Source of the DNA: a candidate division Zixibacteria bacterium HGW-Zixibacteria-1
Lineage (GTDB): Bacteria > Zixibacteria > MSB-5A5 > GN15 > PGXB01
Assembly: GCA_002838945.1 (NCBI GenBank)
Contig: PGXB01000025.1
Span: 1-48,955 of the forward strand
Length of the DNA stretch: 48,955 nt
Direction: 5' to 3'
The position numbers and the translations under genes were made by a program. Below the pieces are notes generated by a model. The model saw only the letters and a program-made list of their open reading frames with translations, was not told the origin of the DNA and did no database searches. Positions 3,793 to 21,215 of this stretch are shown here, one piece after another; the stretch's first letter is position 1, and the number at the start of each line of letters is the position of its first letter.

Positions 3793-4155
3793 ATGGCAGT
3801 AAAGAAGAAAGCGAAAGCCAAACCTAAGGCCAAAGCCAAAGCCAAGCCGAAAGGCAGAAAGAAACCGATGGGCAAAGCCTGGAGCAAAGATGAAATCAAG
3901 ATGCTCCGCCTGTTGTATAAGACCAAACCGGCATCGGCCATTGCCAAGGAGATGAAGAGATCACTGGCATCGGTTCGCGGCAAGATCAGCGCTCTTGGTC
4001 TGGTGAAACCGGCTTCGGCCAGAAAGGCAAGAGCGAAAGCCAAACCGAAACCGAAACCGAAACCAAGACCGAAGAAGAAAGCCAAAGCCAAAGCGAAGCC
4101 GAAAAAGAAAGCCAAGGCGAAGGCGAAGCCCAGGAAAAAAGCCCGGAGAAGATGA
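3793..4155 (+). CDS. histone H1-like protein with central Myb/SANT-like helix-turn-helix
   Basis: This 120-residue, extremely basic protein probably binds and compacts DNA. Residues 1-28 and 77-120 are low-complexity Lys/Ala/Pro tails (KAKAKPK, KPKPKPKPRPK) like the C-terminal tail of eukaryotic histone H1 and bacterial AlgP/Hc1-type proteins. Residues 29-70 are not low complexity: AWSKDEIKMLRLLYKT, then ASAIAKEMKRSLASVRGKI and ALGL. This matches the pattern of small Myb/SANT/GcrA-like helix-turn-helix domains (W-S-x-D/E-E, I-A-x-x-x-x-R-S-x-x-x-V-R-x-K, L-G-L). The ribosome-binding site AAAGGAG lies 8 nt before the ATG. The gene stands alone, ends at a strong bidirectional terminator and is convergent with eno. 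The DNA-binding role is inference from composition and motif. Confidence 0.85.
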   Translation: MAVKKKAKAKPKAKAKAKPKGRKKPMGKAWSKDEIKMLRLLYKTKPASAIAKEMKRSLASVRGKISALGLVKPASARKARAKAKPKPKPKPRPKKKAKAKAKPKKKAKAKAKPRKKARRR

Positions 4156-4216
4156 CATCTTTGTCTAGGCCAAGGATGGAACAATCTAAAAGGACTTAAA
4201 ATTTCATTCCGGGGAA

Positions 4217-4244
4217 AAAACCCGCCCCCTTAAGGGCGGGTTTT
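4217..4244. terminator. bidirectional rho-independent terminator between histone-like gene and eno
   Basis: An 11-bp perfect stem (4217-4227 with 4234-4244) has a 6-nt loop. The outer four pairs are A/T, so both strands read a GC-rich stem followed by a T tract. It sits between two convergent genes. Confidence 0.9.
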
Positions 4245-4278
4245 AGTTTGTACCGATTTGTTTTTGAATCAAGCGGGG

Positions 4279-5586
<1,308 letters not shown>

Positions 5587-5759
5587 TCACGATATACACT
5601 ATTGCAGGACAATCTATCCGGCCCGACTGGCCGTTTCAACAAAAAACTGATTGCGGACTTTGTCTCTTATACGAATAAGCTGCAAGCGCTTATCAGCCGA
5701 TAATATAGCTGGAGAAAAAACTTGGAATTAAATAGTGAAAAACGTTATATTGGCCCAAA

Positions 5760-6755
5760 ATGAAGAAATCCGTAAAAAATAAAAAAGTTCTGGTGACCGG
5801 TGCGGCCGGCTTTATCGGGTCGCATTTGACCGAAATGCTGTTGAAAGGCGGCGCCCGGGTCACGGCGCTGGTCAGATATACCTCATCGGGACAGATTGGC
5901 TGGCTGGAATACCTGCCGCCTTCGGCCAAAGACAGGCTGAGTATTATCCATGGCGATATTCGGGATCCGGATATATGCGAGGCGGCAGTCAAAGGAAACG
6001 ATTATATTTTTAATCTCGCGGCCCAGATCGCTATCCCCTATTCATATATAGCGCCGCGCGATTTTCTGGCGGTCAATGCCGTCGGAACGGCCAACATGCT
6101 TCAGGCGGCCCGGGCCGAGGAAGTCAAAAAAATCCTGCAGGTTTCCACCTCGGAGGTTTACGGCACGGCCCAATATGCGCCGATCGATGAGAGGCACCCG
6201 CAGGTGGCGCAGTCGCCTTATTCGGCATCGAAAATCGCCGCCGACAAAACGGCCCAGTCATTTTACCATAGTTTTGGACTGCCGGTCGTGACGGTTCGCC
6301 CTTTCAACTGCTATGGCCCACGGCAGTCGGCGCGTGCCATCATTCCGACTATCATTCTGCAGGCGCTTCGCGGCAGGGTAATCAGACTGGGCAATGTCGA
6401 ATCGAGCCGTGATCTTAATTTTGTGACCGATATTGCGGCCGGGATGATCGACGCCTGTTTGAACGAGAACACATCGGGAATGACCATGAATCTGGCTTCG
6501 GGTGAGGATCATCCAATCGCGGAACTGGTCGATATTATCGGTGGAATAATTAACAAAAGACTATCCATCAAGACCGAAAAGCGACGCAAAAGACCGGCCT
6601 CATCGGAAGTCTGGCGGCTGGTAGGCGACAGTACTCTGGCAAAAGAAACGATCGGATATAAATCGACTGTCACCATGCAAGCCGGGTTAAAAAAGACCAT
6701 TGAATTTTTCGAGAAACATATTGATATGTACGCCAAAGAGGATTATCAATTGTGA
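5760..6755 (+). CDS. NAD-dependent sugar-nucleotide dehydratase/epimerase, LegB-like
   Basis: This is an extended short-chain dehydrogenase acting on nucleotide sugars. The NAD-binding motif is VTGAAGFIGSHL (about 13-24) and the catalytic Tyr-Lys pair lies in SPYSASKIAADK. The stretches STSEVYGTA, VTVRPFNCYGPRQSARAIIP and RDLNFV are typical of the LegB/GDP-mannose-4,6-dehydratase-like group that starts legionaminate-type or amino-sugar synthesis, so a 4,6-dehydratase on UDP-GlcNAc or a GDP-sugar is the best guess; the substrate cannot be read from sequence. Length 331. The ribosome-binding site before ATG 5760 is weak. The stop overlaps the GTG start of the next gene by 4 nt (GTGA), so the two are translationally coupled. 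Confidence 0.85.
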   Translation: MKKSVKNKKVLVTGAAGFIGSHLTEMLLKGGARVTALVRYTSSGQIGWLEYLPPSAKDRLSIIHGDIRDPDICEAAVKGNDYIFNLAAQIAIPYSYIAPRDFLAVNAVGTANMLQAARAEEVKKILQVSTSEVYGTAQYAPIDERHPQVAQSPYSASKIAADKTAQSFYHSFGLPVVTVRPFNCYGPRQSARAIIPTIILQALRGRVIRLGNVESSRDLNFVTDIAAGMIDACLNENTSGMTMNLASGEDHPIAELVDIIGGIINKRLSIKTEKRRKRPASSEVWRLVGDSTLAKETIGYKSTVTMQAGLKKTIEFFEKHIDMYAKEDYQL

Positions 6756-7474
6756 AGCGCAATCGGGAAACCATCAGCCAGGCGGTAATACTCGCCGGCG
6801 GCGAAGGGCGGCGTCTTCTTCCCTATACCAGAGTTTTGCCCAAACCTCTCTGGCCGGTCGGCGATATTCCAATTGTCGAGATACTTATCCGTCAGTTGGT
6901 CAGAGCCGGCATCCGGGAGATAATCATGGCGGTCGGTTATCAGGCCGATTTGATGCGCATAATTCTGGGCGACGGGCGTCAATTCGGGGTGAATATAAAA
7001 TATTCCGTAGAGAAAAAGCCGATGGGGACAGCGGCGCCTCTTAAAAAAATAAAGGGACTCAAGAGCAATTTTCTCGTTCTGAATGGTGATCTCCTGACCG
7101 ATTTGCCATTCAAAGATTTCATGAAGGCGCATCTCGGGGCCGATTCGCCGGCGACAGTGGCGGTCTTCAAGCGAACGGTCAAAGTCGATTTTGGTGTTGT
7201 GATCGCTCCCAAAGACAAAATTGATCAATACATAGAAAAACCGGTCCTGGGTTATTCGGTATCGATGGGAATATATGCTTTCAATCGCGAAATTCTGGAT
7301 TTGATTCCCAATCGCCGTTTCGATTTCCCGGATCTGGTCGAAAAATTGATCCAAAACGGGCGAAATCCATCGGTATATCGTTTCAAGGGGCAATGGCTCG
7401 ATATCGGCCGCCCGGACGACTGGGAGAAGGCCGATGCCCTTTTTAGAAAAAAACCGCAAGTATTTTTACAATGA
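6752..7474 (+). CDS. sugar-phosphate nucleotidyltransferase
   Basis: This enzyme activates a sugar phosphate with an NTP to give an NDP-sugar. The 240-residue protein is a bare nucleotidyltransferase domain without the left-handed-helix extension of GlmU-type enzymes. It carries the signature AGGEGRRLLPYTRVLPKPL (about 15-33), VLNGDLLTDL (metal-binding Asp) and, near the end, GQWLDIGRPDDW. It starts with GTG at 6752 in a 4-nt overlap with the preceding dehydratase gene. The likely role is to supply an activated sugar for surface polysaccharide or glycoprotein together with the flanking SDR enzymes. Substrates could be Glc-1-P, Man-1-P or a deoxy/amino sugar; the sequence alone does not tell. 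Confidence 0.88.
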   Translation: MKRNRETISQAVILAGGEGRRLLPYTRVLPKPLWPVGDIPIVEILIRQLVRAGIREIIMAVGYQADLMRIILGDGRQFGVNIKYSVEKKPMGTAAPLKKIKGLKSNFLVLNGDLLTDLPFKDFMKAHLGADSPATVAVFKRTVKVDFGVVIAPKDKIDQYIEKPVLGYSVSMGIYAFNREILDLIPNRRFDFPDLVEKLIQNGRNPSVYRFKGQWLDIGRPDDWEKADALFRKKPQVFLQ

Positions 7475-7540
7475 CTTGCATAGTATTTTAGTTTCCAGTC
7501 GATATTATCAACAGGACATAAATTAGAAGGAAATATATAT

Positions 7541-8509
7541 ATGAAATATCTTATAACGGGCGGCGCCGGATTCATCGGAAGCAATATTGCCCATGAATTG
7601 CTCAAGAAGGGCGCACAGGTCCGCATCATCGACAACTTCTCCACCGGACGAAGAATCAATATTTCCGATATCGAGGATAAAATTGAAGTGATCGACGGTG
7701 ATATCCGCGATTTCTGGACGGTCAAAGAGGCGATCGAAGGGGTGGATTATGTTTTGCATCAGGCGGCCCTGCCATCGGTGCCCCGGTCGGTAAAAAATCC
7801 GCTGACGTCGAATTCGGTCAATATCGACGGCACGCTCAATTTGCTCGAAGCGGCCAAACAGGCGGGTGTCAAACGCTTTGTGATGGCGTCATCATCATCG
7901 GTCTATGGCGACACGCCGGAATTGCCGAAACATGAAGCGATGTGGACCGATCCCCTGTCTCCGTATGCCGTAACCAAACTGACCGGTGAAAAGTACTGCA
8001 AGGTTTTCTTTGAGCTTTATGGACTGGAAACGGTCTGCCTGCGTTATTTCAATATTTTCGGACCCAGACAGGACCCGAAATCGGAATATGCGGCGGTTAT
8101 CCCTAAATTTATCAATGCCATGCTGGCCGGAAAGCAGCCGATTGTATTCGGTGACGGCGAGCAGTCGCGCGATTTCACGTATATCGACAATGCCGTTCAG
8201 GCCAACCTTCTGGCCACAACCGCACCTGATGCGCCGGGGAAATATTTCAATATCGCCTGTGGCGCCCGTTTCACGCTGAATCAGCTAATTGAAATGCTTG
8301 GCGAGATTCTTGAAACCGATATCAAGGCCAAGTACACTCCGCCCCGACGCGGTGACATTCTTCATTCTTATGCCGATATAGCCCGGGCGCGGAAGGAACT
8401 GGGATATGATCCCAGGATCATGTTCGAAGACGGTCTCAGGAAGACGGTTGAATGGTTTTCGGCCATTTTCAATTCGCATACTCCGGCGGGCGGAATAAAA
8501 ATCGGATAA
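7541..8509 (+). CDS. NAD-dependent nucleotide-sugar epimerase (UDP-GlcNAc/UDP-Glc 4-epimerase-like)
   Basis: This is an extended SDR of 322 residues. It shows ITGGAGFIGSNIAHELL (NAD-binding Gly motif), IIDNFSTGR (NAD ribose contact), QAALPSVPRSVKNP, the catalytic SSSSVYG and YAVTK (Tyr-x3-Lys), and CLRYFNIFGPRQDP. The AALPSVPRSVxDP/NP and FNxFGPRQDP patterns are characteristic of WbpP/Gne-type UDP-N-acetylhexosamine C4-epimerases and close relatives. A ribosome-binding site (GAAGGAA) precedes the ATG. It follows the nucleotidyltransferase by 66 nt and ends at a strong terminator, so it is probably the last gene of a three-gene sugar-nucleotide operon. The exact epimerisation substrate is uncertain. 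Confidence 0.87.
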   Translation: MKYLITGGAGFIGSNIAHELLKKGAQVRIIDNFSTGRRINISDIEDKIEVIDGDIRDFWTVKEAIEGVDYVLHQAALPSVPRSVKNPLTSNSVNIDGTLNLLEAAKQAGVKRFVMASSSSVYGDTPELPKHEAMWTDPLSPYAVTKLTGEKYCKVFFELYGLETVCLRYFNIFGPRQDPKSEYAAVIPKFINAMLAGKQPIVFGDGEQSRDFTYIDNAVQANLLATTAPDAPGKYFNIACGARFTLNQLIEMLGEILETDIKAKYTPPRRGDILHSYADIARARKELGYDPRIMFEDGLRKTVEWFSAIFNSHTPAGGIKIG

Positions 8510-8530
8510 TTCGCAGGACTCTGAGATAAT

Positions 8531-8561
8531 AAAAGCGGCGTATCGCATGATCGCCGCTTTT
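8531..8561. terminator. bidirectional terminator after the sugar-nucleotide operon
   Basis: The stem AAAAGCGGCG / CGCCGCTTTT (8531-8540 with 8552-8561) has an 11-nt loop and A/T-rich outer pairs, giving a T tract on both strands. It separates the plus-strand epimerase gene from the convergent minus-strand cluster ending at 8598. Confidence 0.85.
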
Positions 8562-8597
8562 GATTTTTTAAATAGAGACTTAAAATTAAGAATTCTA

Positions 8598-8903
8598 TCA
8601 GTCATCAAACAAATTGTCGAAACGCTTTTTGCGGCCGTCCTTATTTTCTCTCGGAGTAACTTTCCCGCCCGGCGTATGAAGCGCCAGCCTGATCTGGAAC
8701 CAGTCACAGAAATTCGATTTGTCTTTCATTGGAATCGGCGCATCAAGCTTCTCACGGCACTGCCAGCGGGCGGTCGGGTCAAAATGACGACACCCCCGAC
8801 AGCAGCGTAAATCGGCCAGACAATGGGGACAGGCATCACTACGGGTCACTTTTCCTTCGATGCCGGTAGGCCGTCCGCAATTCCAACATATCAAGTCACC
8901 CAT
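8598..8903 (-). CDS. small protein with two predicted zinc sites
   Basis: This 101-residue cytosolic protein is rich in Cys. C6-x2-C9 and C25-x2-C28 form a zinc-ribbon-like site; C35-x2-C38, C49 and C66 (CRGCRHFDP, WQC, NFCDWF) form a second Cys cluster of the C-x2-C-x10-C-x16-C type. The function is unknown; such proteins may be accessory or regulatory factors. I placed the start at ATG 8903 because GAGGG lies 7 nt upstream; the TTG two codons earlier would be only 1 nt from that site. It follows the asparagine-synthase-like gene by 70 nt on the same strand and could be the last gene of that operon. Confidence 0.75.
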   Translation of the reverse strand: MGDLICWNCGRPTGIEGKVTRSDACPHCLADLRCCRGCRHFDPTARWQCREKLDAPIPMKDKSNFCDWFQIRLALHTPGGKVTPRENKDGRKKRFDNLFDD

Positions 8904-8973
8904 CAGCAATCCCTCATAAAGATTAAAACCATCGTAACCTTCCTAATATAATGTAAAAACGCAAGGATGCAAA

Positions 8974-10809
8974 TTATCTCTGCAAAATCAGTTTTTGGCG
9001 ATATCGCCTTTCGACCTCATTCATATAGAGGATCAGGGTCAGAAGCTGATAAAGATGCAATCTGTCCGGGCGCCCGTTGAGGTAACGGTCAAGACAGCCA
9101 GGGTCAAAATGGGATTTCACCGTCTCGCAATTGTCATATAGTTTTCGGATCTCGCCGGCTAACCGGGCATGTTCGGTTTCAATATACCGCCTCGGCCCGG
9201 CTTTTCCCCGAATCCACTGCCCGGCTTTAAATAGATAGCGATTATCGCGGACAGTCCTCTTTATTTTCATCCGATTCCGGAACATTATCCGGCTGAGGGC
9301 CGAATCGAAGCGCACCCCGCTGCCATACATCGGGATATTCAGCGATTGCGGGCTGAGAAGTTTTAAAAACAGGGCAAAGAAATCATAGTCGATATATCCG
9401 GGAGGTATCATTTCGGCGGCAAAGGAAAACAGATGATTCCCCCACATCGGCGCGACGGTCCAGCAAAAAAGGCGGTTGCGATCCTCACCGGAGTTGACTG
9501 TTTTATTATTGTAATCAAAAAACAGGTGCCGGGTCTGGGCCACCGGATCGGTCTCATCATACCGGTCGATATCCAATACAAGACTATCATGCAATTCGGA
9601 TTTCTTCAGACTCAGCAATGGACAGGCATCCGACATTTTCATGTAATGATTATACCCGTCATCAATGATGGCATCGGCGAGATGATGATACCCTTTTTTG
9701 GGCATATATACCCAGCGAATAAACTCGCCCCCCATCCCTTTGAAATTGGCAAACGGCCCGGGGAGTTTATTCTCTCGTTCCAGATCATCATAATAGCAGG
9801 AGGTGTCGATCAACCCGTTGACCAGCCCATCGGTGATATAGAGAATCCGGGTCATTTCGGTAATATCATCGACCGGATGCGCGGCCGACATGATATGGAT
9901 ATCTTTTTCATATAGCCCGGCCAGTCGCCGGGCCGTGCCGGTTTCGTCGCCGGTTATCAATTTATCGGTGCAGGCGGTGAAGTCGGCCTTCATCTCGCAT
10001 AATCCGGCGAAAACCGCCCGTGTATCATAGCCGCCGCTTAAATCCGCGACAATCGACAATTCCTTTTCCCGAAGCTTGTCATGGCGCCATGTCAACGACT
10101 GTCGGAACAGGTCCAGATATCTGCCAGCCGCTCCGGATCGGCTCAAGCCGGTATCATTGTGTTTAAAAGAAACCGGGACGATATTATTGAATATTTCGGT
10201 CTTAATAAAAGCATCGTTTATATTTACCGTTAAAGCCGAAGCCGGGCCCAGCCGGTGAATATTCTTAAAAAATGTCTTATCACCGAGAATATATTCCAGC
10301 GTCAGAAATTCGGCCAGGGCTTGAACATCATATTGAATGGAAGGCACCCATTCGAGTACGAATTTTACTTCCCGCGACAGGGCCAGCATCTGATCGGAAA
10401 GACTGTAATAAACAGGTAAGCGCCCCCAGCGATCGTTAAAAAACAGCAGCCGGTTGTCTTGTTTCAAATAGATAAGTACAAGATAGTCGCCATCGGCATC
10501 ATGCATGAATTGCCTGACAGCATCCGGATATGTATCATTTCTTCGAAATTTGTCGGCGATATCGAACAGTCGTGATTTGATTAAATCATCAGTGATATTA
10601 TAAATCAGCCCTTCGATCAATATGAACCGATCGGGCTCATCGAAGCTCAATCGGGGATAACCATTATAGCCGCAGAAGGCCGCGGCAATGTTTTTGGCTG
10701 AGATGATTTGCTCGATATTGAATTTGGGAAGATGCTTTAGCAGCGCAAAGCTATTTTCGGCTTTCTGTGGGGAGAGTCCGGGGATTGTGATCAAGCTAAG
10801 ACCGGGCAT
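8974..10809 (-). CDS. asparagine-synthase-like protein lacking the glutaminase Cys
   Basis: This 611-residue protein has the two-domain outline of class-B asparagine synthetases. The N-terminal Ntn-glutaminase-like domain (about 1-190) retains FFNDRWGRLPVYYSL, the equivalent of the family's D-x-x-G-x-x-P-L-Y-Y, but the chain begins MPGLS: the Cys2 nucleophile is absent, so glutamine hydrolysis is not expected. The C-terminal domain has a pyrophosphatase loop DLSGGYDTR (about 256-264), a variant of SGGxDS. The family adenylates a carboxylate and forms an amide or a lactam; examples without glutaminase activity include beta-lactam synthetase and lasso-peptide cyclases. Here it could also be an exopolysaccharide-cluster member. 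GAGGT upstream overlaps the preceding stop codon and the gene starts only 8 nt after the ferredoxin gene, so they are co-transcribed. The substrate is unknown. Confidence 0.82.
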   Translation of the reverse strand: MPGLSLITIPGLSPQKAENSFALLKHLPKFNIEQIISAKNIAAAFCGYNGYPRLSFDEPDRFILIEGLIYNITDDLIKSRLFDIADKFRRNDTYPDAVRQFMHDADGDYLVLIYLKQDNRLLFFNDRWGRLPVYYSLSDQMLALSREVKFVLEWVPSIQYDVQALAEFLTLEYILGDKTFFKNIHRLGPASALTVNINDAFIKTEIFNNIVPVSFKHNDTGLSRSGAAGRYLDLFRQSLTWRHDKLREKELSIVADLSGGYDTRAVFAGLCEMKADFTACTDKLITGDETGTARRLAGLYEKDIHIMSAAHPVDDITEMTRILYITDGLVNGLIDTSCYYDDLERENKLPGPFANFKGMGGEFIRWVYMPKKGYHHLADAIIDDGYNHYMKMSDACPLLSLKKSELHDSLVLDIDRYDETDPVAQTRHLFFDYNNKTVNSGEDRNRLFCWTVAPMWGNHLFSFAAEMIPPGYIDYDFFALFLKLLSPQSLNIPMYGSGVRFDSALSRIMFRNRMKIKRTVRDNRYLFKAGQWIRGKAGPRRYIETEHARLAGEIRKLYDNCETVKSHFDPGCLDRYLNGRPDRLHLYQLLTLILYMNEVERRYRQKLILQR

Positions 10810-10817
10810 GGGATTAA

Positions 10818-11369
10818 CTACCTCGTTGAAATCATTTCAATGGCCTCTTCAGGGCAGAGATCGACACACAGGCCGCAGCCATAGCAATTGTCCCGGATTA
10901 TTTGCAGTTCGCCGCTATCAATCGCCCTGGCCCGGAAATAGCATACCTCGACGCAATTGCCGCAATGCTGGCATATATCATAATTGGTTTTTTCAATAAG
11001 CGCGCCCTTATCGCACTGTTCTTCCGGTTTGGTAAAGTATCCGCAGCAGTCATCACAGCAGAAACAGATGCCTTCGATGGTTTTCCGGTCAATCTCATTT
11101 CGGAAAGGCCGCGCCACCAGATGCTTCGAAGATGCTTCTTTGAGAATATTACTGACATCGGTAAAGCAAATTTCATGCATCGATGCGCCGCTGGCCGGGA
11201 TATCACCGCGAAACATCAGGCAGAGATCAAGGCGCGATTTTTGGCATATCGACCCGCGGCTTTCACGGCAACCGCAATTGGAAACCCAATAACGGTCGAA
11301 TCTTTTTATTAAATCCGCCGCTTCATCATGGGTGCAGACAAAGTGAAAAGGGATTTTATCATTATTCAT
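10818..11369 (-). CDS. ferredoxin-like protein with two [4Fe-4S] motifs and a Cys-rich N-terminal domain
   Basis: The C-terminal part has two classical C-x2-C-x2-C-x3-C motifs, at Cys 133/136/139/143 and 162/165/168/172 (CQHCGNCVEVC and CYGCGLCVDLCP), sufficient for two [4Fe-4S] clusters. The first 120 residues hold twelve more Cys, including NCGCRESRGSIC, LDLCLMF and the cluster CFCCDDCC at 102-109. This resembles the domain with a C-x-C-R...C...C-L-x-F pattern seen in some electron-transfer dicluster proteins. Total length is 183, soluble, with no twin-Arg signal. It sits between an SDR oxidoreductase gene (15 nt upstream) and the asparagine-synthase-like gene (8 nt downstream), suggesting electron delivery to a redox step in the same pathway; that is inference. 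Confidence 0.82.
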   Translation of the reverse strand: MNNDKIPFHFVCTHDEAADLIKRFDRYWVSNCGCRESRGSICQKSRLDLCLMFRGDIPASGASMHEICFTDVSNILKEASSKHLVARPFRNEIDRKTIEGICFCCDDCCGYFTKPEEQCDKGALIEKTNYDICQHCGNCVEVCYFRARAIDSGELQIIRDNCYGCGLCVDLCPEEAIEMISTR

Positions 11370-11384
11370 CGACTCGATCCTTAA

Positions 11385-12116
11385 TTACTTATTGATTAAA
11401 AGCGGCCGAATATCGGCCATCGAGGTCCAGGCATTCTTATTCTGCTTCGCCAGAAAGACCACCGCCTCGGCGACTTCATCGACGGTCAGTTTCAGCGCGG
11501 CCTTTGAGGGTGTTTTCGATTTTTTCGACAAATTCGACATGAAACCGGTATCGGTCGAGGCGGGCGCCAGCACCGAGATTTTTATATTTTCGTTGCGGAC
11601 CTCGCCGGCGACCGCCTCGGAAAAAACATTGAGGGCCGCTTTGGATGACGAGTAGGCGGCCAGGCCGGGAACGCCCATGCGTCCGGCTCCCGACGAGATA
11701 TTAATTATCTGCCCGCCCCCCTGCATTCGGAAGAGGGGAATCAGTTCCAGAAAGGAAAAATAGACAGCCTTCAGGTTGGTATCGAAGATGGTATCGAATT
11801 CTTTTTCGGTGGTTTCTGTTATCGGCTTATGTATTCCAACGCCGGCATTATTGATAAAGATATCGATACGGCCGAATTTCTCGACGGTCGCGGCGATGAT
11901 CTTCTTCATTTGGCTTCTGACGGTAATATCGGCCTGGACAAGCAGATAATTCTTCTTGTCAAGATTAAGCGAAAGAGCTGTCTGCCGCAGCCGGGCCATA
12001 TTTCTGGAAGCCAGGACTACTCTGGCGCTCTCGCCGGCGAATTGGCGCCCGATAGCGGCGCCGATACCTCGCCCGCCGCCGGTAATGACGACCACTTTGT
12101 TCTCAAGGCTTATCAT
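11385..12116 (-). CDS. short-chain dehydrogenase/reductase (SDR)
   Basis: This is a classical SDR of 243 residues, NAD(P)-dependent. It shows VVITGGGRGIGAAIGRQFA (TGx3GxG), INNAGVG (NNAG), an ISSGAGR strand carrying the catalytic Ser, and AYSSSKAA (Y-x3-K). Closest in general form to 3-oxoacyl-ACP reductase FabG-like enzymes, but the substrate is unknown. I placed the start at ATG 12116 (MISLENKVVV) because CGGAG lies 7 nt upstream and the fold begins there; the frame stays open upstream to 12236 without a better signal. It is the first gene of a tight minus-strand run with the ferredoxin and asparagine-synthase-like genes, so it may act in the same pathway. Confidence 0.88.
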   Translation of the reverse strand: MISLENKVVVITGGGRGIGAAIGRQFAGESARVVLASRNMARLRQTALSLNLDKKNYLLVQADITVRSQMKKIIAATVEKFGRIDIFINNAGVGIHKPITETTEKEFDTIFDTNLKAVYFSFLELIPLFRMQGGGQIINISSGAGRMGVPGLAAYSSSKAALNVFSEAVAGEVRNENIKISVLAPASTDTGFMSNLSKKSKTPSKAALKLTVDEVAEAVVFLAKQNKNAWTSMADIRPLLINK

Positions 12117-12217
12117 GCTAAACTCCGTTTGATGAAATTCCAGAATGGTAATGTACGACATTAAGGCACAAAAATAAAGAGGTTGATATTCGGCGGAAAT
12201 GGCATAAAAAAAGAGTC

Positions 12218-12250
12218 GGGAACCCGCCCCCCTCAAAAAAGCGGGTTCCC
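12218..12250 (-). terminator. GGGAACCCGC hairpin with T tract on the minus strand
   Basis: The perfect 10-bp inverted repeat GGGAACCCGC / GCGGGTTCCC (12218-12227 with 12241-12250) has a 13-nt loop. On the minus strand it is followed by seven T residues (12206-12212), so it can end transcripts from the histidine kinase gene upstream, before the SDR gene. The GGAACCC arm recurs in hairpins at 30571-30625 and 48426-48463. Confidence 0.7.
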
Positions 12251-12609
12251 TGCCTCGAGAAAAAGAAGATGGCGATTTACAGAAGCGACATCAGCAAATT
12301 TATTTCTAAAGCTTTTCTATGGCTTCCGCATTCACCTGTATGTAAAGCAAGCCTCATACCAAACTCCCAACAGCTCGGAGTGGTGACGCCTAAGATGTTG
12401 ACAGCATTATGATTACGGCGACAGAAATGAATGATTGGTGTTCGTTCCGAAGTATAAACTCGTATGGTTCTACGAATCGCCGAGGTAATAATGGCGTAAG
12501 ATCATGTAATTTCGCCAATTGAGAAGTACGTCGAAAATAACGATTCTCGTCAATATCTACGAGGTAATTCGGCTGTTGCCCGGTCGAAGGAATTACAGGT
12601 TATTGAATT
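12251..12609. other. intergenic region without a recognisable gene
   Basis: No ORF with a credible ribosome-binding site is visible. The stretch has several short inverted repeats, for example TCGTA/TACGA around 12461-12476 and CTCGT/ACGAG around 12546-12563, which might fold as part of the 3' end of the histidine kinase transcript. No known RNA family was recognised. Confidence 0.4.
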
Positions 12610-15600
12610 TCAGGTGGCGGTAGTTACCGCGGGAACATTATCAAGAGCTTTTCGGATAGCCTGGGCCAATGATTTTAAGGTCACAGGTTTTCTGAGGAAA
12701 CCGGAAGCTCCCAGATCAAGAGCATATTTCGCTCTCTCGGATCTGGCGAAGCCGGAAACGATGATGGCCTTTTGGTTTGGTCGAAGGTCGAGAATCTTTT
12801 TATAAGTATCGGCGCCGTCAATGCCCGGAGGCATAATCATATCCATAAGAATAAGATCAATCGTATTTTCCTTGATTCTTTGGATAGCGTCCTCACCACT
12901 GTCCGCCATCAGGACCGTATAGCCGAGCTTTTCCAGAAGTTTGGCGGTGACATCGCGCTGTTCCGCATCATCGTCCACCACCATAATCGTTTCCTCGCCG
13001 CCATAAATCTGATCGCCCTGAAAGCTCTCTATTTCCTGGCGCGTGACCGGGAAATAAAGATAGAACTTCGTCCCTCGTTCGGGTTTGGTCTCCAAATCGA
13101 TATACCCGTGATGATCCTCCATGACGGCATGAACCACACTCAGACCGAGCCCGGAGCCGCGCCGTTTATCCGTTGCCTTGGTTGTGAAAAACGGGTCAAA
13201 AATCTTACTCACTATTTTTGAAGGTATTCCCTTGCCGGTATCGGCCAGGGTCAGTTTGACATATTCGCCCTTGGGAATGTTTTCGTAACCGCCGGCCAAT
13301 TCATCAAGATAGTAATTTTCGGTTTGTATCGTAAGGGTTCCGCCGTCTTCCATGGCATCATAGGCGTTGGTCACCAGATTTGAAATCACCCGGTGAATCT
13401 GGGCGCCGCCACCGACGATATTCATCAGGTCACCGGCCAGCCTGGAAACGACCTTTACATTGCCGGAGGGCGGCTGTATGTGAGCCAGAACATCTTTGAC
13501 AATGTCATTAAGGGCCAGTGGAGTCAATTCATAATGCGCCCGCCGCCCCAGAGTAAGGAGCTGCTGATTGATATCGGCAATCTTTTGGGCGGAATTCTCC
13601 ATGGCATTCAGATACTTGATAACGCGGCTGTTTTCCGGCAGTTCATCCTTTATAAGTTCAGGAAAGGCGACCAATGGCCCTAGCAGGTTATTGAAATCAT
13701 GAGCGACCTGCCCGGCGATTCGTCCGGCTGTCTCAAGGCGCTGGGCGCGAAGGGCGAAATTCTGCAGTCGTCTGGTTTCGGTGATATCGCGGGCAATGCC
13801 GCATAGACCGATTATTTGCCCGTCAGCATCACGCATCGGCACCTTGATTACATGAACAAGTTTTTCCTCACCGCACACGGGCCGCGAGCTTTCTTCATTA
13901 ATGATTTCTCCTCCAAGAACCTTTTCGTCGACCAACGCTATCCGCCGGGAGGCCTCGCGGCCGAACAGGTCATGATCGGATTTGCCTATCAACTCCGAGG
14001 CATCGATCCCGAAAAGTCTCCCTACCGCCGGGTTGGCCGCAACATATCTCAAATTGAGATCCTTTATAAAAATCATATCCTGGGCCGATTCAAAAATGGT
14101 ACGAAACCATTCTTCACTTTGACGAAGTGCTTCTTCGGCTTTTTTCCAGTTTGTGATATCCCGGGTTACTGTCAGAATATGCGGCACACCTTTGAGATAG
14201 ATTATAGTTGCCGACATCAGGGCGGTAACCACGGAGCCATCCTTTTTCCGGAAGTCGGCTTCTATATTTTTGACAAATCCATCTTTTCTCAGACCATTTA
14301 CTAATTTTTGGCGGTCATTAATATCCACCCACAGATTCAGGTCAGATGAAGTTTTGCCCTCTGCCTCTTCTTTTAAATATCCTGTTAATGCGGTAAAACC
14401 GTCGTTGACCTGGATCAGCCTTCCATCATTAACCTGACTGATTAATATCGAGTCGGGACTGGTATCGAAGGCCAGACGGACCCGCTCTTCACTTTCCTTG
14501 AGAGCTGCAGCCGCCCGCTTGCGGGCCGAGATATCGCGGACCACCCCTTGGACAATACGGCATCCGCCAAGTTCCATCAAGGTCGATGAGACTTCGGCCT
14601 GGAAAATATCATTATTCACTTTCCTGAAATCGATCTCAAAAAAGACAGAACCGTCCCGCACCACCCTTTCAAACGCCGCTTTCGCCGTCGGCAACATATT
14701 TTCCGGATGGATATCCTCAATTTTGTTCTTCAGCATTTCTTCACGGGTACAGCCGAATAACTGGAGGGTCTTTTTATTGACATCGATTATGTTTCCATCG
14801 AGGTCATGGATGAAGATGGCATCACTGGAATTATGGAAAAGAAGACTGTATTTTTCTTTGTTTTCGCGCAGAGCCTGCTCGGCCGCTTTGCGCTCGGTGA
14901 TATCCATATTTATGCCGAGAATGCCGATTGTCTGGTCGCTATCAAGAATGGGAGCAATAATATTATGTATGTATTTCTTCTCATCATTTATTGCATATAT
15001 GACTTCTTCATCGACCGTCTCGCCGGAAAGAGCCCGAGAGTTATTCCGCCGCCACAGCTCTTTGATCTCTTCTGTCGGCGCCACCTCTTCAGGCAGTTTC
15101 CCAATAATATTGCCCCAATTACGCAGGCATGTTTTGTTTTGAAGCACATAGCGCCCGCTCTCATCCATTGCAAAAAAGTCAAAGGGCAGGCTGTCCATGG
15201 TCGCCCGCAACAGAGCTTCATTCTTTCTGAGTTGATCTTCAGCCTTTTTGGCGGCGGTAATATCCCTGATAATGGTTATTACCCGTTCCACCCTGTTGTC
15301 CTTATAGATGGCGATTTTCCGAGTGTCAGTAATTACTTCCTGCCTGGACAAATCAGTCGATTCGTGGGTTACAATTGTCTTCCCATTCTTGAAAATATTC
15401 TCATATTCTTTCTTTACTGATTCCGGAAGAAAAGGATATATCGAGAACAGATTTCGACCTACCAAATCGGTGTCGAGGCCCAGCTCCTTATGCCATTTTA
15501 GAAGAGCCTGATTTACCAGAACAACGTTATAATTACGGTCGATAACATGAAGCGGGTCCCCCAGCAAGTCGATAGTTGAACGATATTGCTCTTCCGAGCT

Positions 15601-16215
15601 TCTTAGCGCATCCTCATTCTCTTTGCGTTCGGTAATATCAGCTGTCAGCACATATCGACCGATGATAACGTCGCTCTCAATGGAGAAAGAATATCGATTG
15701 CGAATATACCGCCTGACGCCGTCCTTGCGCACGATCCAGAATCGCAGCTCATCGGGAAAAATCCCGCGCAGTTTCGATTCCTCGATCACATGGAGCAGGC
15801 GCTCTCGTTCTTCGGGAGCAGCCAGGGCAGGGGCGTCCATTTTCATTAATTCTTCACGAGGGCAGCCAAAAATCTCGCAGGCACGGTCGTTAACATAGAC
15901 GATCCGCCCGCTTTCTATAATTGTCAGGCCGTCATTGATATAATCCGCCGTCCGCCTGAAACGGATCTCACTTTCGCGAAGGGCCGTCTCGATCAGGCGT
16001 CGCTTTCTCAATATTCGTGATGCAATAAGACCGAAGATAGTTATAACAACCAAAACAAAGGCGCGGAAGTATATCTCCTGAGCAGAAAGTCCCAATATGA
16101 GCAGGTCCCAGAAGGACTCCTGGTAATAAATCAAATGATCGATTATGGTATCGGTAACCCAGTATACCACTCCCAATAAAATTGAAATTACAAAAATCTT
16201 AGATTCGGCTCTCAT
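12610..16215 (-). CDS. membrane-bound hybrid histidine kinase with six PAS domains and a receiver
   Basis: This is a large sensor kinase of about 1200 residues. Two hydrophobic helices lie at the N-terminus (about 5-22 and 48-70). Six PAS domains follow, recognisable by repeated E-x-x-F/Y-R-x-x-x-D-S-x-D-x-I-x-I and N-x-x-x-x-x-L-F-G patterns. Next come a phosphoacceptor region (GQVAHDFNNLLG, His about 839), an ATPase domain (N-box NLVTNAYDAM, G1 ADTGKGIP, G2 RRGSGLGLSVV) and a C-terminal receiver (MVVDDDAEQR, phosphoacceptor Asp about 1125 in LILMDMIMPPG, Lys in LRKPV). The signal could be redox, light or a small ligand. No response regulator gene is adjacent. The start is uncertain: ATG 16215 is used, but TTG 16224 lies 9 nt from an AGGA and TTG 16233 is also in frame. 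Confidence 0.93.
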   Translation of the reverse strand: MRAESKIFVISILLGVVYWVTDTIIDHLIYYQESFWDLLILGLSAQEIYFRAFVLVVITIFGLIASRILRKRRLIETALRESEIRFRRTADYINDGLTIIESGRIVYVNDRACEIFGCPREELMKMDAPALAAPEERERLLHVIEESKLRGIFPDELRFWIVRKDGVRRYIRNRYSFSIESDVIIGRYVLTADITERKENEDALRSSEEQYRSTIDLLGDPLHVIDRNYNVVLVNQALLKWHKELGLDTDLVGRNLFSIYPFLPESVKKEYENIFKNGKTIVTHESTDLSRQEVITDTRKIAIYKDNRVERVITIIRDITAAKKAEDQLRKNEALLRATMDSLPFDFFAMDESGRYVLQNKTCLRNWGNIIGKLPEEVAPTEEIKELWRRNNSRALSGETVDEEVIYAINDEKKYIHNIIAPILDSDQTIGILGINMDITERKAAEQALRENKEKYSLLFHNSSDAIFIHDLDGNIIDVNKKTLQLFGCTREEMLKNKIEDIHPENMLPTAKAAFERVVRDGSVFFEIDFRKVNNDIFQAEVSSTLMELGGCRIVQGVVRDISARKRAAAALKESEERVRLAFDTSPDSILISQVNDGRLIQVNDGFTALTGYLKEEAEGKTSSDLNLWVDINDRQKLVNGLRKDGFVKNIEADFRKKDGSVVTALMSATIIYLKGVPHILTVTRDITNWKKAEEALRQSEEWFRTIFESAQDMIFIKDLNLRYVAANPAVGRLFGIDASELIGKSDHDLFGREASRRIALVDEKVLGGEIINEESSRPVCGEEKLVHVIKVPMRDADGQIIGLCGIARDITETRRLQNFALRAQRLETAGRIAGQVAHDFNNLLGPLVAFPELIKDELPENSRVIKYLNAMENSAQKIADINQQLLTLGRRAHYELTPLALNDIVKDVLAHIQPPSGNVKVVSRLAGDLMNIVGGGAQIHRVISNLVTNAYDAMEDGGTLTIQTENYYLDELAGGYENIPKGEYVKLTLADTGKGIPSKIVSKIFDPFFTTKATDKRRGSGLGLSVVHAVMEDHHGYIDLETKPERGTKFYLYFPVTRQEIESFQGDQIYGGEETIMVVDDDAEQRDVTAKLLEKLGYTVLMADSGEDAIQRIKENTIDLILMDMIMPPGIDGADTYKKILDLRPNQKAIIVSGFARSERAKYALDLGASGFLRKPVTLKSLAQAIRKALDNVPAVTTAT

Positions 16216-16346
16216 ATTGCTCAAAATAATCAATCCTGCCTATTGCCGGGGTTTCGCTGTAATTATCTGATCGGGATGGTATTGCCCCCTCATAAATTTC
16301 CTATTTATGGTCGAGTTCAATTACTCATAGCGACAAATGCTTCTTA

Positions 16347-16364
16347 CCCATGCCAAAGCATGGG
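16347..16364 (-). other. hairpin in the leader of the hybrid kinase gene
   Basis: The perfect 7-bp inverted repeat CCCATGC / GCATGGG has a 4-nt loop and lies about 130 nt upstream of the kinase start. No T tract follows on the minus strand, so it is not an obvious terminator. It could be a regulatory hairpin or a protein-binding site; no riboswitch family was recognised. Confidence 0.35.
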
Positions 16365-16429
16365 AAAGAGGCATAATATTAATATCGGAATAACGCTCGT
16401 TTCTTTTAACCAATATGGGTGGGGAAAAG

Positions 16430-16449
16430 GGGCCGTTTGATAACGGCCC
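16430..16449 (-). terminator. second terminator downstream of purA
   Basis: The stem GGGCCGTT / AACGGCCC (16430-16437 with 16442-16449) has a 4-nt loop and, on the minus strand, is followed by CTTTTCCCC. It lies in tandem behind the stem at 16466-16488 and backs it up. Confidence 0.7.
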
Positions 16450-16465
16450 TAGCCAAAAAAGCAGC

Positions 16466-16488
16466 GGTTCCTTCAGGTCGAAAGAACC
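16466..16488 (-). terminator. first terminator downstream of purA
   Basis: A 9-bp stem with one G-T pair (16466-16474 with 16480-16488) has a 5-nt loop and is followed on the minus strand by GCTGC and six T. It begins 14 nt after the purA stop codon, making it the likely end of the lon-ysxC-purA run. Confidence 0.75.
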
Positions 16489-16501
16489 TTTAGGCAAAAT
16501 C

Positions 16502-17776
16502 TTATACTACGATGGTTTCCTCTCGTCGGGCTCCCGTCGAAACCAGGCAGATCTTAACATCGAGATCGGTGGCGATAAACCCGAGATAAGTCCGGGCCTT
16601 TTCAGGCAGCGCATTAAAATCATGCTTATCTGTCGTCGATGTCAGCCAGCCGTCAAACTCCCTGTAAATCGGTTTGACATGCCACAGATCGGACAGGTCC
16701 AGCGGAACTTCCTGAATTTCATTGCCATCAAGGGTATAGCCGACACAAATCTTTATCTTTTCCATATTGTCAAGAACATCCAGTTTGGTAACGGCGATTT
16801 TCTCAATCCCGTTAATTCTGCAGGCATGCCGAAGCGCGACCAGGTCGAGCCAGCCGGTTCGACGCGGCCGGCCGGTGGTGGCGCCGTATTCGCCGCCCGA
16901 TTCGCGCAGTTTTTCGCCGGTATCATCGAGCAATTCGGTGGGGAACGGCCCGGCGCCGACCCGGGTGGTATAAGCCTTGACCACGCCGATAACTTCATCG
17001 AAGATTTTCGGGCCGACACCCAGCCCGGTCAGGGCGCCGCCGACGGTCGTGTTGGACGAAGTGGCATAGGGATAAGTTCCCAGATCAACATCAAGCATGG
17101 CGCCCTGGGCTCCTTCGAACAGAATCGACTTGCCGGCCTTGTGATGCCTGGTCAGTTCCAGCGAAACATTGACCATCCGCGGTTTCAGTACCGGGGCGAT
17201 TTCAAGCAAATCATTATAAATTTTATTAATGTCGGCACGATCATCATCGGCACCGGTGAAGATATCGGACCGTGTCCGCCGATACAGTTCCAGCTTTTCA
17301 CGGAGTTTGTCGGGAGCGTAAAGATCGCACAGGCGGATCCCGAAGCGGCCGACTTTGTCCCGGTAGGCCGGCCCGATACCGCGAAGGGTGGTCCCGATGC
17401 CGCCGTTCCCGCGATTGGATTCCTGGAGCGAATCAATCAACTTATGATACGGCATGACCAGATTGGCCGCGGATGATATGAACAAACGCCCTTCGGTCCG
17501 GATGCCTTCCTTTTCCAATAATTCCAATTCTTCGATCAAACCGAACGGATCGACAACGACACCATTGCCGATATAGCATATTTTCCCCGGATGAATGATC
17601 CCCGATGGTATCAAATGCAAAACATATTTTTTATTTCCATCCAGGATAGTGTGTCCGGCATTGGCCCCACCCTGGAACCGGGCAATAATGTCGGCTTTTT
17701 CGGCCAGGAGATCGACCACCTTGCCTTTGCCTTCATCGCCCCATTGACAGCCGACTACGACAATGTTTTTACCCAT
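16502..17776 (-). CDS. purA: adenylosuccinate synthetase
   Basis: PurA joins IMP and aspartate using GTP, the first committed step from IMP to AMP. Length 424 is normal. Visible are the GTP/IMP loop CQWGDEGKGKVVD with the catalytic Asp (about 10-22), FQGGANAGHTI with the catalytic His, GTTLRGIGPAYRDK, LFEGAQGAMLDVDLGTYP, TTVGGALTGLG, TGRPRRTGWLD and KLDVLDN. Nothing essential is missing. It starts 20 nt after ysxC, so the two are co-transcribed, and two hairpin terminators follow. Cytosolic housekeeping enzyme. Confidence 0.97.
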   Translation of the reverse strand: MGKNIVVVGCQWGDEGKGKVVDLLAEKADIIARFQGGANAGHTILDGNKKYVLHLIPSGIIHPGKICYIGNGVVVDPFGLIEELELLEKEGIRTEGRLFISSAANLVMPYHKLIDSLQESNRGNGGIGTTLRGIGPAYRDKVGRFGIRLCDLYAPDKLREKLELYRRTRSDIFTGADDDRADINKIYNDLLEIAPVLKPRMVNVSLELTRHHKAGKSILFEGAQGAMLDVDLGTYPYATSSNTTVGGALTGLGVGPKIFDEVIGVVKAYTTRVGAGPFPTELLDDTGEKLRESGGEYGATTGRPRRTGWLDLVALRHACRINGIEKIAVTKLDVLDNMEKIKICVGYTLDGNEIQEVPLDLSDLWHVKPIYREFDGWLTSTTDKHDFNALPEKARTYLGFIATDLDVKICLVSTGARREETIVV

Positions 17777-17796
17777 AGTAAAATCTCTTCCGCGGT

Positions 17797-18375
17797 TTAC
17801 TTCGGATTGCCGACAACGTCCTCAATCCACTTTATTAATTCCCTTTTCCCGACCCCGGACACACTGGAGAACGGAATCGGCGTTACTTTGAAAACCTTTT
17901 CTATTTCTTTGCTCTTTTTGGCCAAATTATTCCTGGTTAACTTATCCGCTTTTGTCAGAACAATGGCGAAATCCAGATTCCGGCTTTGCAGCCAATCAAC
18001 CATCATCAGGTCATCTTCATTCGGATCGCGCCGGCAGTCAAGGAGAAAACAGACCGCCCGCAGCATGGGCGAACTTTCCAAATAATTATTTACCAGCTTG
18101 CCCCATTGGCGTTTTTCGTTTTCCGAGGCCTTCGCATAACCATAGCCGGGCAGGTCCACAAAAAAGTACTTTTCATTGATCAAGAAAAAATTTACCAACC
18201 TTGTGCGACCGGGAGTTTTGGAAGTTTTCGCGAGCCGCTTGACGGCAACTAACCGATTGAGCAGTGATGACTTCCCGACATTGGAACGCCCCGTAAATGC
18301 AATTTGAGGACGGGGATCCGAAGGAATTTTTTGGGCGTCCGCGTAGGACCTGTAAAATACAGCATTTAGCGGCAT
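17797..18375 (-). CDS. ysxC: ribosome-biogenesis GTP-binding protein YsxC/EngB
   Basis: YsxC/EngB is an essential GTPase in many bacteria and helps assemble the large ribosomal subunit. The 192-residue protein carries G1 GRSNVGKSSL (about 29-38), a G2 region KTPGRTRLVNFF, G3 DLPGYGYAK and G4 TKADKL, in the order expected for the TrmE-Era-EngA-EngB family. The N-terminal FYRSYADAQKIP is also typical. It lies between lon (62 nt upstream) and purA (20 nt downstream); lon-ysxC adjacency is seen in other bacteria, such as Bacillus subtilis. Confidence 0.95.
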   Translation of the reverse strand: MPLNAVFYRSYADAQKIPSDPRPQIAFTGRSNVGKSSLLNRLVAVKRLAKTSKTPGRTRLVNFFLINEKYFFVDLPGYGYAKASENEKRQWGKLVNNYLESSPMLRAVCFLLDCRRDPNEDDLMMVDWLQSRNLDFAIVLTKADKLTRNNLAKKSKEIEKVFKVTPIPFSSVSGVGKRELIKWIEDVVGNPK

Positions 18376-18437
18376 ATTAAGTTTTCCGGTCTGAATAACC
18401 GAAGTAGTATATCAAATTCAAAACCAAAATAGAAGCC

Positions 18438-20825: not shown

Positions 20826-21215
20826 ATAGACCTTTCCTCAATTATGGAAGCCTCACTCAAAACGCCTTGTAATTTAACCAATTTCTCCGCTAATGGTTAG
20901 GGTTTTTTGACAATGATTGATAAGTAGCAGCGGTGTATTGAGATAGGACAAAAAAGAGGCCGCAGTACAGGCTCTCTTTCATCCGCCTTCCAAAATCGGC
21001 AAAAGCCGGTAGAAAATATATCTAGCCTGAAATATTTCGGGCCAAAGTCCCCCCGTATCTTATTTTCTCTTAAAGAATAAGCCAAAAAGCCCTTGCCAAA
21101 ACGGGCAATCTATAGTATAGTTTTAGACTTATTAATACGGTGAGGAACGATTTAGACTTCAGTCAGTATAAACATCTGTGAATAAAAGAATATTAAAATA
21201 GAGGAATATTGGTTC
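20826..21215. other. divergent intergenic region between lon and the parvulin operon
   Basis: No ORF is credible here. The left part should hold the lon promoter on the minus strand, which I cannot place with confidence. The right part holds a sigma70-like candidate for the parvulin operon at 21093-21121. No heat-shock CIRCE element was recognised. Confidence 0.4.
21093..21121 (+). promoter_or_regulatory. candidate sigma70-type promoter for the parvulin operon
   Basis: TTGCCA (21093-21098) and TATAGT (21116-21121) are separated by 17 nt and lie 95 nt before the lipoprotein start. Each hexamer has one mismatch to the E. coli consensus. The true consensus of this lineage is not known to me. 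Confidence 0.35.

Follow-up and report, generated by a model that had tools for sequence, protein, structure and literature searches.

An asparagine-synthase-like protein without the glutaminase cysteine, probably a glutamine-independent ligase, in an accessory gene cassette of Zixibacteria

Introduction

The window analysed here, a stretch of 48,955 nucleotides forming positions 1 to 48,955 of contig PGXB01000025.1 of candidate division Zixibacteria bacterium HGW-Zixibacteria-1, contains four adjacent genes that encode a short-chain dehydrogenase/reductase (SDR), a ferredoxin with two Fer4 motifs, an asparagine-synthase-like (AsnS-like) protein and a small protein with nine Cys residues. The AsnS-like protein, P0001, lacks the catalytic cysteine of glutaminases and is probably a glutamine-independent ligase; a tentative case can be made that it acts on a surface glycan. 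Its gene belongs, with those of the SDR and the ferredoxin, to a mosaic accessory cassette of exchangeable genes. A preliminary description, made from the sequence alone, had taken all four genes for a possible unknown biosynthetic pathway. Zixibacteria are a little-studied bacterial group. No paper on such an AsnS-like protein, on an asparagine synthase of Zixibacteria, on an asparagine synthetase associated with PEP-CTERM or on this combination of gene types was found in the open-access literature.

The gene locus

The genes and other features of the locus are listed in Table 1. Gaps of 15 nt (SDR/ferredoxin), 8 nt (ferredoxin/AsnS-like) and 70 nt (AsnS-like/nine-Cys) separate the four genes, which are near-contiguous and all on the minus strand, as first described. 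All four open reading frames (ORFs) are real. Orthologues of each are present in relatives, and the order SDR, ferredoxin, AsnS-like, nine-Cys is constant wherever these genes occur together; the arrangement is therefore not a product of chance. The relatives matched at 8 loci in one scan of genome contigs were mostly metagenome-assembled genomes (MAGs) labelled 'Candidatus Zixiibacteriota'. To judge from its sequence pattern, the hairpin upstream of the SDR gene probably bounds the cassette transcript on that side. The nine-Cys gene is linked to the cassette by position and probably has no part in its function.

Table 1. Features at the locus of the AsnS-like protein, in window coordinates
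Feature	Position	Strand	Remarks
SDR (P0003), first cassette gene	11385-12116	minus	243 aa, Pfam adh_short E 3e-53
Short polyferredoxin (P0002)	10818-11369	minus	183 aa, Cys-rich N-terminal domain and two Fer4 [4Fe-4S] motifs
AsnS-like putative ligase (P0001)	8974-10809	minus	611 aa, inactive-looking glutaminase-type and ATP-pyrophosphatase-type synthetase domains
Small nine-Cys protein (P0004)	8598-8903	minus	101 aa, probably zinc-binding, core gene
Terminator-like hairpin, strong, 15 pairs	12218-12250	minus	between upstream PAS/histidine-kinase-like gene and SDR; pattern match only
Promoter-like site upstream of nine-Cys gene, in gap	8945-8973		consensus match only
NAD-dependent sugar-nucleotide dehydratase/epimerase, LegB-like	5760-6755	plus	TIGR04180, 387.6 bits, below cut-off of 475
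Sugar-1-phosphate nucleotidyltransferase, convergent neighbour	6752-7474	plus	PF00483, 1.1e-39
UDP-sugar epimerase-family enzyme, convergent neighbour	7541-8509	plus	NF011728, 275.4 bits, below cut-off of 760

The AsnS-like protein: family and fold

The Pfam family Asn_synthase gave no match to P0001 at E ≤ 1, and the only Pfam match was a sub-threshold one to GATase_7. Among the NCBIfam models the best match was TIGR03108, which comprises the XrtA/PEP-CTERM-type amidotransferases and WbpS/WbqG (E 4.9e-12, 45.3 bits against a cut-off of 816.9), while asparagine synthetase B (TIGR01536) scored 34.6 bits against a cut-off of 267.1 and a lasso cyclase was matched weakly (2.7e-9). A single-sequence search of solved structures with P0001 returned nothing useful, and a profile search gave only a weak match to the hydroxyamidotransferase TsnB9 (E 0.033). 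Alignment of the AsnS-like profile to that of asparagine synthetase B (AsnB) of relatives by hhalign reached a probability of 99.2 over residues 50-326.

A structure prediction, proposed as a check in the preliminary description, was carried out with AlphaFold2 from 8 sequences and gave a mean local confidence (pLDDT) of 89.5 and a pTM of 0.90. The model was superimposed over both domains on TsnB9 (7YLZ; Z 23.5, 511 residues, 3.6 Å by VIA-align), E. coli AsnB (1CT9; Z 20.8, 427 residues, 3.7 Å), beta-lactam synthetase (1M1Z; Z 20.7, 414 residues, 3.8 Å) and carbapenam synthetase (1Q19; Z 19.5, 437 residues, 4.1 Å). With Z values of 19.4-23.5 over 414-511 residues for the structure entries of these enzymes, P0001 is predicted to carry the full AsnS/beta-lactam-synthetase fold.

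Active-site residues

The motifs recognised in P0001 are an MPG start and EGLIYN in the N-terminal glutaminase-type domain, and DLSGGYDTRA, GMGGEFIR and GEDRNRLF.W in the synthetase domain. Residues were counted across 29 full-length family members aligned with 11 AsnB sequences, after 4 of 33 anchors had been removed (the fragments L119, L131 and L130, and L206 with its long N-terminal extension); L127, L223 and L247 stand outside the 29 rows. Position 2, occupied by the glutaminase cysteine (Cys2) in 11 of 11 AsnB, is Pro in all 29 relatives, a count in which the N-termini were trimmed to the first [MVL]PG within 80 residues, which biases toward PG. The NGE motif, which contributes to glutamine binding in AsnB and is present in 11/11 of these, is replaced by [E/D]G and a non-acidic residue in 29/29 relatives (EGx in P0001). 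The SGGxD motif of the ATP-pyrophosphatase, or pyrophosphate (PPi), loop is kept in all 29, and the Arg after SGGxD[ST] is invariant (29/29); further positions, such as GE.R.R..W, are strongly conserved.

Thus P0001 shares with asparagine synthetase B the predicted two-domain fold, the PPi loop and the position of the N-terminal glutaminase-type domain, but it lacks Cys2 and carries D[T/S]R after SGGx where AsnB has DS[S/A/G/C]. The absence of the glutaminase Cys and the presence of SGGYDTR were both reported correctly at the outset, and from the lost Cys2 together with the SGGxD[ST]R loop it follows, as had been proposed, that this glutaminase-dead protein is probably a glutamine-independent ligase. 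A Glu-Tyr dyad is required by an AsnS-like nitrile synthetase, according to a passage of PMC13060819; it could not be mapped onto P0001.

Phylogeny and spread

In a maximum-likelihood tree of 40 rows, both the window clade of 11 and the split of all 29 AsnS-like rows from AsnB were supported at 100/100. Two members bear labels of other phyla: L136 (Myxococcota) groups with the sequences of genomes G004, G008 and G014 at 89/79, and L138 (Chloroflexota) is basal within the clade. This close clade was found in 10 of 132 Zixibacteria genomes, counted as matches above 580 bits. Outside them, a single genome carried it among 297 from the phylum of L136, where L247 is one weaker homologue, and a single one among 301 from the phylum of L138. 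The close clade is nearly confined to Zixibacteria and is distinct from true AsnB, and its relatives have diverged strongly (29-62% identity).

A canonical glutamine-dependent AsnB was not found in the window genome (G000) at E ≤ 1e-40, and was present in 11 of the 30 genomes searched. Two PF00733 matches of the window genome were rejected as AsnB, being GMP-synthase-like and LarE-like (names read from sequence). A role of the AsnS-like protein as a substitute for AsnB was rejected, as G003, G005, G009 and G014 carry both genes. Nor do the linked genes belong to an asparagine-synthesis context, a point that the preliminary description had set down for checking.

Some individual genes deserve mention. 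In G005 the AsnS-like gene lies in two pieces about 145 kb apart (L119:9270-10676 and L130:8465-9172), residues 1-147 adjoining the SDR gene and residues 141-606 the small-Cys gene, through either a rearrangement or an assembly error. An in-frame TAG was reported in the AsnS-like match L113:261-2093 of G001; the called ORF of 609 aa ends there and the TAG is probably a normal stop. In three wider relatives (L212, L214 and L216, in G093, G090 and G092) groES-groEL immediately precedes the AsnS-like gene; the gene that follows it in L212 and L214 is rubrerythrin-like, and in L216 the contig ends there (gene names read from sequence).

The SDR, the ferredoxin and the nine-Cys protein

The SDR is of the classical type, with 180.7 bits for Pfam adh_short against a cut-off of 26.6. 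The ferredoxin (Pfam Fer4, 2.3e-12) contains 20 Cys, 12 of them before both Fer4 motifs. The preliminary description had counted these 12 extra residues exactly; they are not peculiar to this protein. In all three longer homologues that could be compared (350-416 aa; six loci were tried and the other three gave no ORF), Cys residues align with Cys 32, 34, 50, 102, 104, 105, 108 and 109 and with all eight Fer4 Cys, leaving only Cys 12, 42, 68 and 119 without a partner. Polyferredoxins annotated as '4Fe-4S binding' are widespread, and longer homologues were seen among relatives and in two further genomes. With two CxxCxxCxxxC motifs and the N-terminal signature C-x-CR ... CxCCxxCC, the window protein appears to be a short member of a polyferredoxin family without characterised function, differing from the longer members in the absence of an N-terminal extension of roughly 100 residues or more. 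It was found in 24 of 132 genomes of the phylum, and its neighbours vary across the 23 loci examined; the motif scan missed the gene at L201 and L205, where tblastn finds both. A structure prediction from two sequences (pLDDT 47.8) was not used.

The small protein, with 9 Cys in 101 aa, matched no Pfam or NCBIfam family. Its gene is a single-copy core gene, present in 51 of 60 relatives and in 40 of 41 good-quality genomes, mostly without other cassette genes nearby, and a dedicated four-gene pathway is therefore not supported. In other families an SDR of 56-60% identity lies upstream of it, directly in G016, with an isocitrate/isopropylmalate-dehydrogenase-type gene between in G030, and with a gene of that same type and a TlpA-like gene between in G034 (names read from sequence). 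The link between the SDR and the nine-Cys gene may be older than the cassette.

Composition of the cassette

Among the 15 genomes of the family, the AsnS-like gene is present in 9, the ferredoxin in 7 and the SDR (orthologues at E ≤ 1e-50) in 8. All three occur together in 4 (G000, G004, G008 and G014); SDR and ferredoxin occur without the AsnS-like gene in G006 and G013, and SDR and AsnS-like without the ferredoxin in G001 and G005. The SDR gene was never found without one or both of the other two next to it. In G004 the trio lacks the small-Cys gene and lies on another contig, away from the usual locus. Fisher tests, which ignore kinship and genome incompleteness, gave p = 1.0 for AsnS-like and ferredoxin (both in 4/15), p = 0.31 for SDR and AsnS-like, and an uncorrected p = 0.04 for SDR and ferredoxin (both in 6/15); across the 132 phylum genomes, AsnS-like and ferredoxin gave p = 0.083. 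The preliminary description had named a lack of co-occurrence in related genomes as grounds for refuting the pathway. This applies in part, as the nine-Cys gene mostly stands apart and the AsnS-like protein and the ferredoxin meet no more often than by chance, and the four-gene reading is thus only partly supported. The SDR, ferredoxin and AsnS-like genes are a mosaic accessory cassette of exchangeable genes.

A GyrI-like gene stands between the SDR and ferredoxin genes in G008 and G014 and precedes the ferredoxin gene in G011; there is no GyrI-like gene at this place in the window. The GyrI-like small-molecule-binding protein is encoded directly upstream of the ferredoxin at L115:7088-7699, L116:11265-11879 and L124:7193-7807. 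A second adjacency of AsnS-like and ferredoxin genes was seen in G055, where a different AsnS-like protein (L127:8075-9895, 606 aa, VPG start, FTGGLDTR, Pfam Asn_synthase above cut-off) is convergent with a ferredoxin orthologue (L127:9909-10457), 13 nt apart.

Glycan setting and related systems

Both close-clade members outside Zixibacteria lie in surface-polysaccharide clusters. At L136, a 'Deltaproteobacteria' MAG, the genes are an O-antigen ligase, two GT2 glycosyltransferases, the AsnS-like protein, two GT4 glycosyltransferases and a polysaccharide deacetylase with DUF3473; at L138, a 'Dehalococcoidales' MAG, a GT2 gene adjoins the AsnS-like gene and is followed by DUF2206, GT4, methyltransferase and DegT aminotransferase genes. 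The more distant homologue L247 has glycosyltransferases, a flippase, a Wzy-like ligase and a polysaccharide export protein nearby. More distant Zixibacteria homologues adjoin GT4/acetyltransferase genes in G034, G052 and G038, and that of G011 is near a flippase and an O-antigen ligase.

A parallel is offered by TIGR03108. The outside relatives of P0001 lie in similar polysaccharide clusters, and L136 shares the surroundings of DUF3473 deacetylase and glycosyltransferases. The known TIGR03108 family uses glutamine; P0001 differs in lacking the glutaminase Cys and in scoring far under the cut-off. Members of the family (WbpS, WbqG and PGN_1234) form uronamides, and genes related to it adjoin polysaccharide deacetylase, glycosyltransferase and exosortase genes, as passages of PMC7468200 describe. 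A putative asparagine synthase was also placed, in a passage of PMC12407052, in a glycosyltransferase locus that makes UDP-N-acetylglucosaminuronic acid (UDP-GlcNAcA).

At the window locus itself, the LegB-like gene is a convergent neighbour of the cassette and is kept at the locus in relatives, and the best NCBIfam match of the product of 7541-8509 was TviC, the UDP-GlcNAcA 4-epimerase, below cut-off. Elsewhere in the neighbourhood no Rfam match was obtained within 4000-21000, and repeats of at least 18 nt gave only short two-copy or distant inverted matches, which were not interpreted.

TsnB9 is the best structural match, at 12% identity; it works with glutamyl hydroxamate from TsnB6/7, according to a passage of PMC13418202. 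No counterpart of TsnB6/7 was seen at the window locus. Beta-lactam and carbapenam synthetases, which are also without glutaminase function, share the fold with about 11-12% identity over the structural alignment, and no beta-lactam pathway genes were recognised near the cassette. Beta-lactam synthetase closes its lactam within one molecule by means of a Tyr-Glu dyad.

Interpretation

The explanation preferred here, tentatively and as one that may well prove wrong, is a glutamine-independent, ATP-dependent ligase that acts on a surface glycan and is encoded within an accessory cassette. P0001 would be an AsnS-fold ligase with a dead glutaminase half, in which the SGGxD[T/S]R loop would activate a carboxylate as acyl-adenylate; this would then be joined to a directly delivered amine, or possibly a hydroxyl, instead of the ammonia of glutamine. 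The most likely substrate would be a sugar with a carboxyl group, as part of a surface glycan or of its lipid- or nucleotide-linked precursor, and the product a uronamide or an aminoacyl-amide. The SDR and the ferredoxin could plausibly adjust the redox state of the sugar or the donor, while the core gene of the nine-Cys protein probably only adjoins the cassette. In favour of this explanation are the predicted fold, the altered glutaminase residues with the retained SGGxD loop, the polysaccharide clusters around the outside relatives and the glycosyltransferase or flippase genes near some wider Zixibacteria homologues, the best NCBIfam match to TIGR03108, and the G004 trio. Several observations weigh against it. 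The two outside members of the clade are single cases and could be misbinned or transferred. None of the 10 Zixibacteria close-clade genomes has the AsnS-like gene inside a glycosyltransferase cluster, most of these genes adjoining purA or the small-Cys gene, and three wider relatives adjoin groEL, not glycan genes. G006 and G013 have the sugar-nucleotide trio at the same locus but no AsnS-like gene, so that the link of the trio to this gene is not specific. P0001 reaches the cut-offs of neither TIGR03108 nor TIGR01536. Finally, the acidic residue of the G[E/D]G loop, which is catalytic in AsnB, is present in 11/11 AsnB and 17/18 wider relatives and in 0/11 of the close clade, in a column taken from the multiple alignment alone, the profile alignment to AsnB stopping at residue 327. 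The close clade carries GxGGE[FW][IL]R in 10/11, with F/L/M/Y in place of the acid, and because of this loss the ligase activity may be altered or lost.

The same replacement, together with the change of NGE to EGx and the strong sequence drift, could mean that P0001 is a pseudo-enzyme or has a regulatory role, having lost both activities and keeping the AsnS fold as a binding scaffold. This seems unlikely, as the invariant SGGxD and following Arg and the other conserved positions would be unusual for a mere scaffold. Somewhat less improbable is a neighbourhood without common function, in which a slot ahead of the core small-Cys gene readily takes up SDR, GyrI-like, ferredoxin and AsnS-like genes, co-transcribed but unrelated. 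The SDR genes of 56-60% identity that other families carry before their small-Cys gene, separated from it by different genes or by none, and the many unrelated contexts of the ferredoxin outside the family are consistent with such a slot; the G004 trio without the small-Cys gene and the co-occurrence of SDR and ferredoxin, uncorrected and among related genomes as it is, argue against it. There is only a small chance that the cassette makes a small-molecule or peptide amide, lactam or ester, with P0001 acting like beta-lactam synthetase or lasso cyclase and the SDR and ferredoxin-dependent steps tailoring the product. The place of beta-lactam and carbapenam synthetases among the closest folds, the weak lasso cyclase match and the trio in four family genomes would fit, but AsnS-like and ferredoxin are distributed independently, the two outside relatives lie in polysaccharide clusters, and no NRPS (non-ribosomal peptide synthetase), PKS (polyketide synthase), RiPP (ribosomally synthesised and post-translationally modified peptide) precursor, transporter or resistance gene was recognised in the cassette gene maps, where most neighbours were not searched against Pfam. 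It is very unlikely that the cassette is a redox-coupled carboxylate-processing unit, in which P0001 would make acyl-AMP with no acidic base in its G[E/D]G loop, the activated group would be reduced by the Cys-rich ferredoxin and the SDR, and the AsnS fold would thus serve reduction or C-O bond formation and not amidation.

Significance

The locus cautions that genes lying side by side should not be taken for a pathway, since three of these four make up an exchangeable cassette and the fourth is a core gene. The analysis defines a clade of glutaminase-dead AsnS-like proteins that has an altered active-site loop and hardly occurs outside one uncultured phylum. Enzymes of the AsnS fold are known to serve in making asparagine, beta-lactams, lasso peptides, hydroxamates, nitriles and uronamides; if active, the clade would add a new chemistry or a new substrate to this fold.

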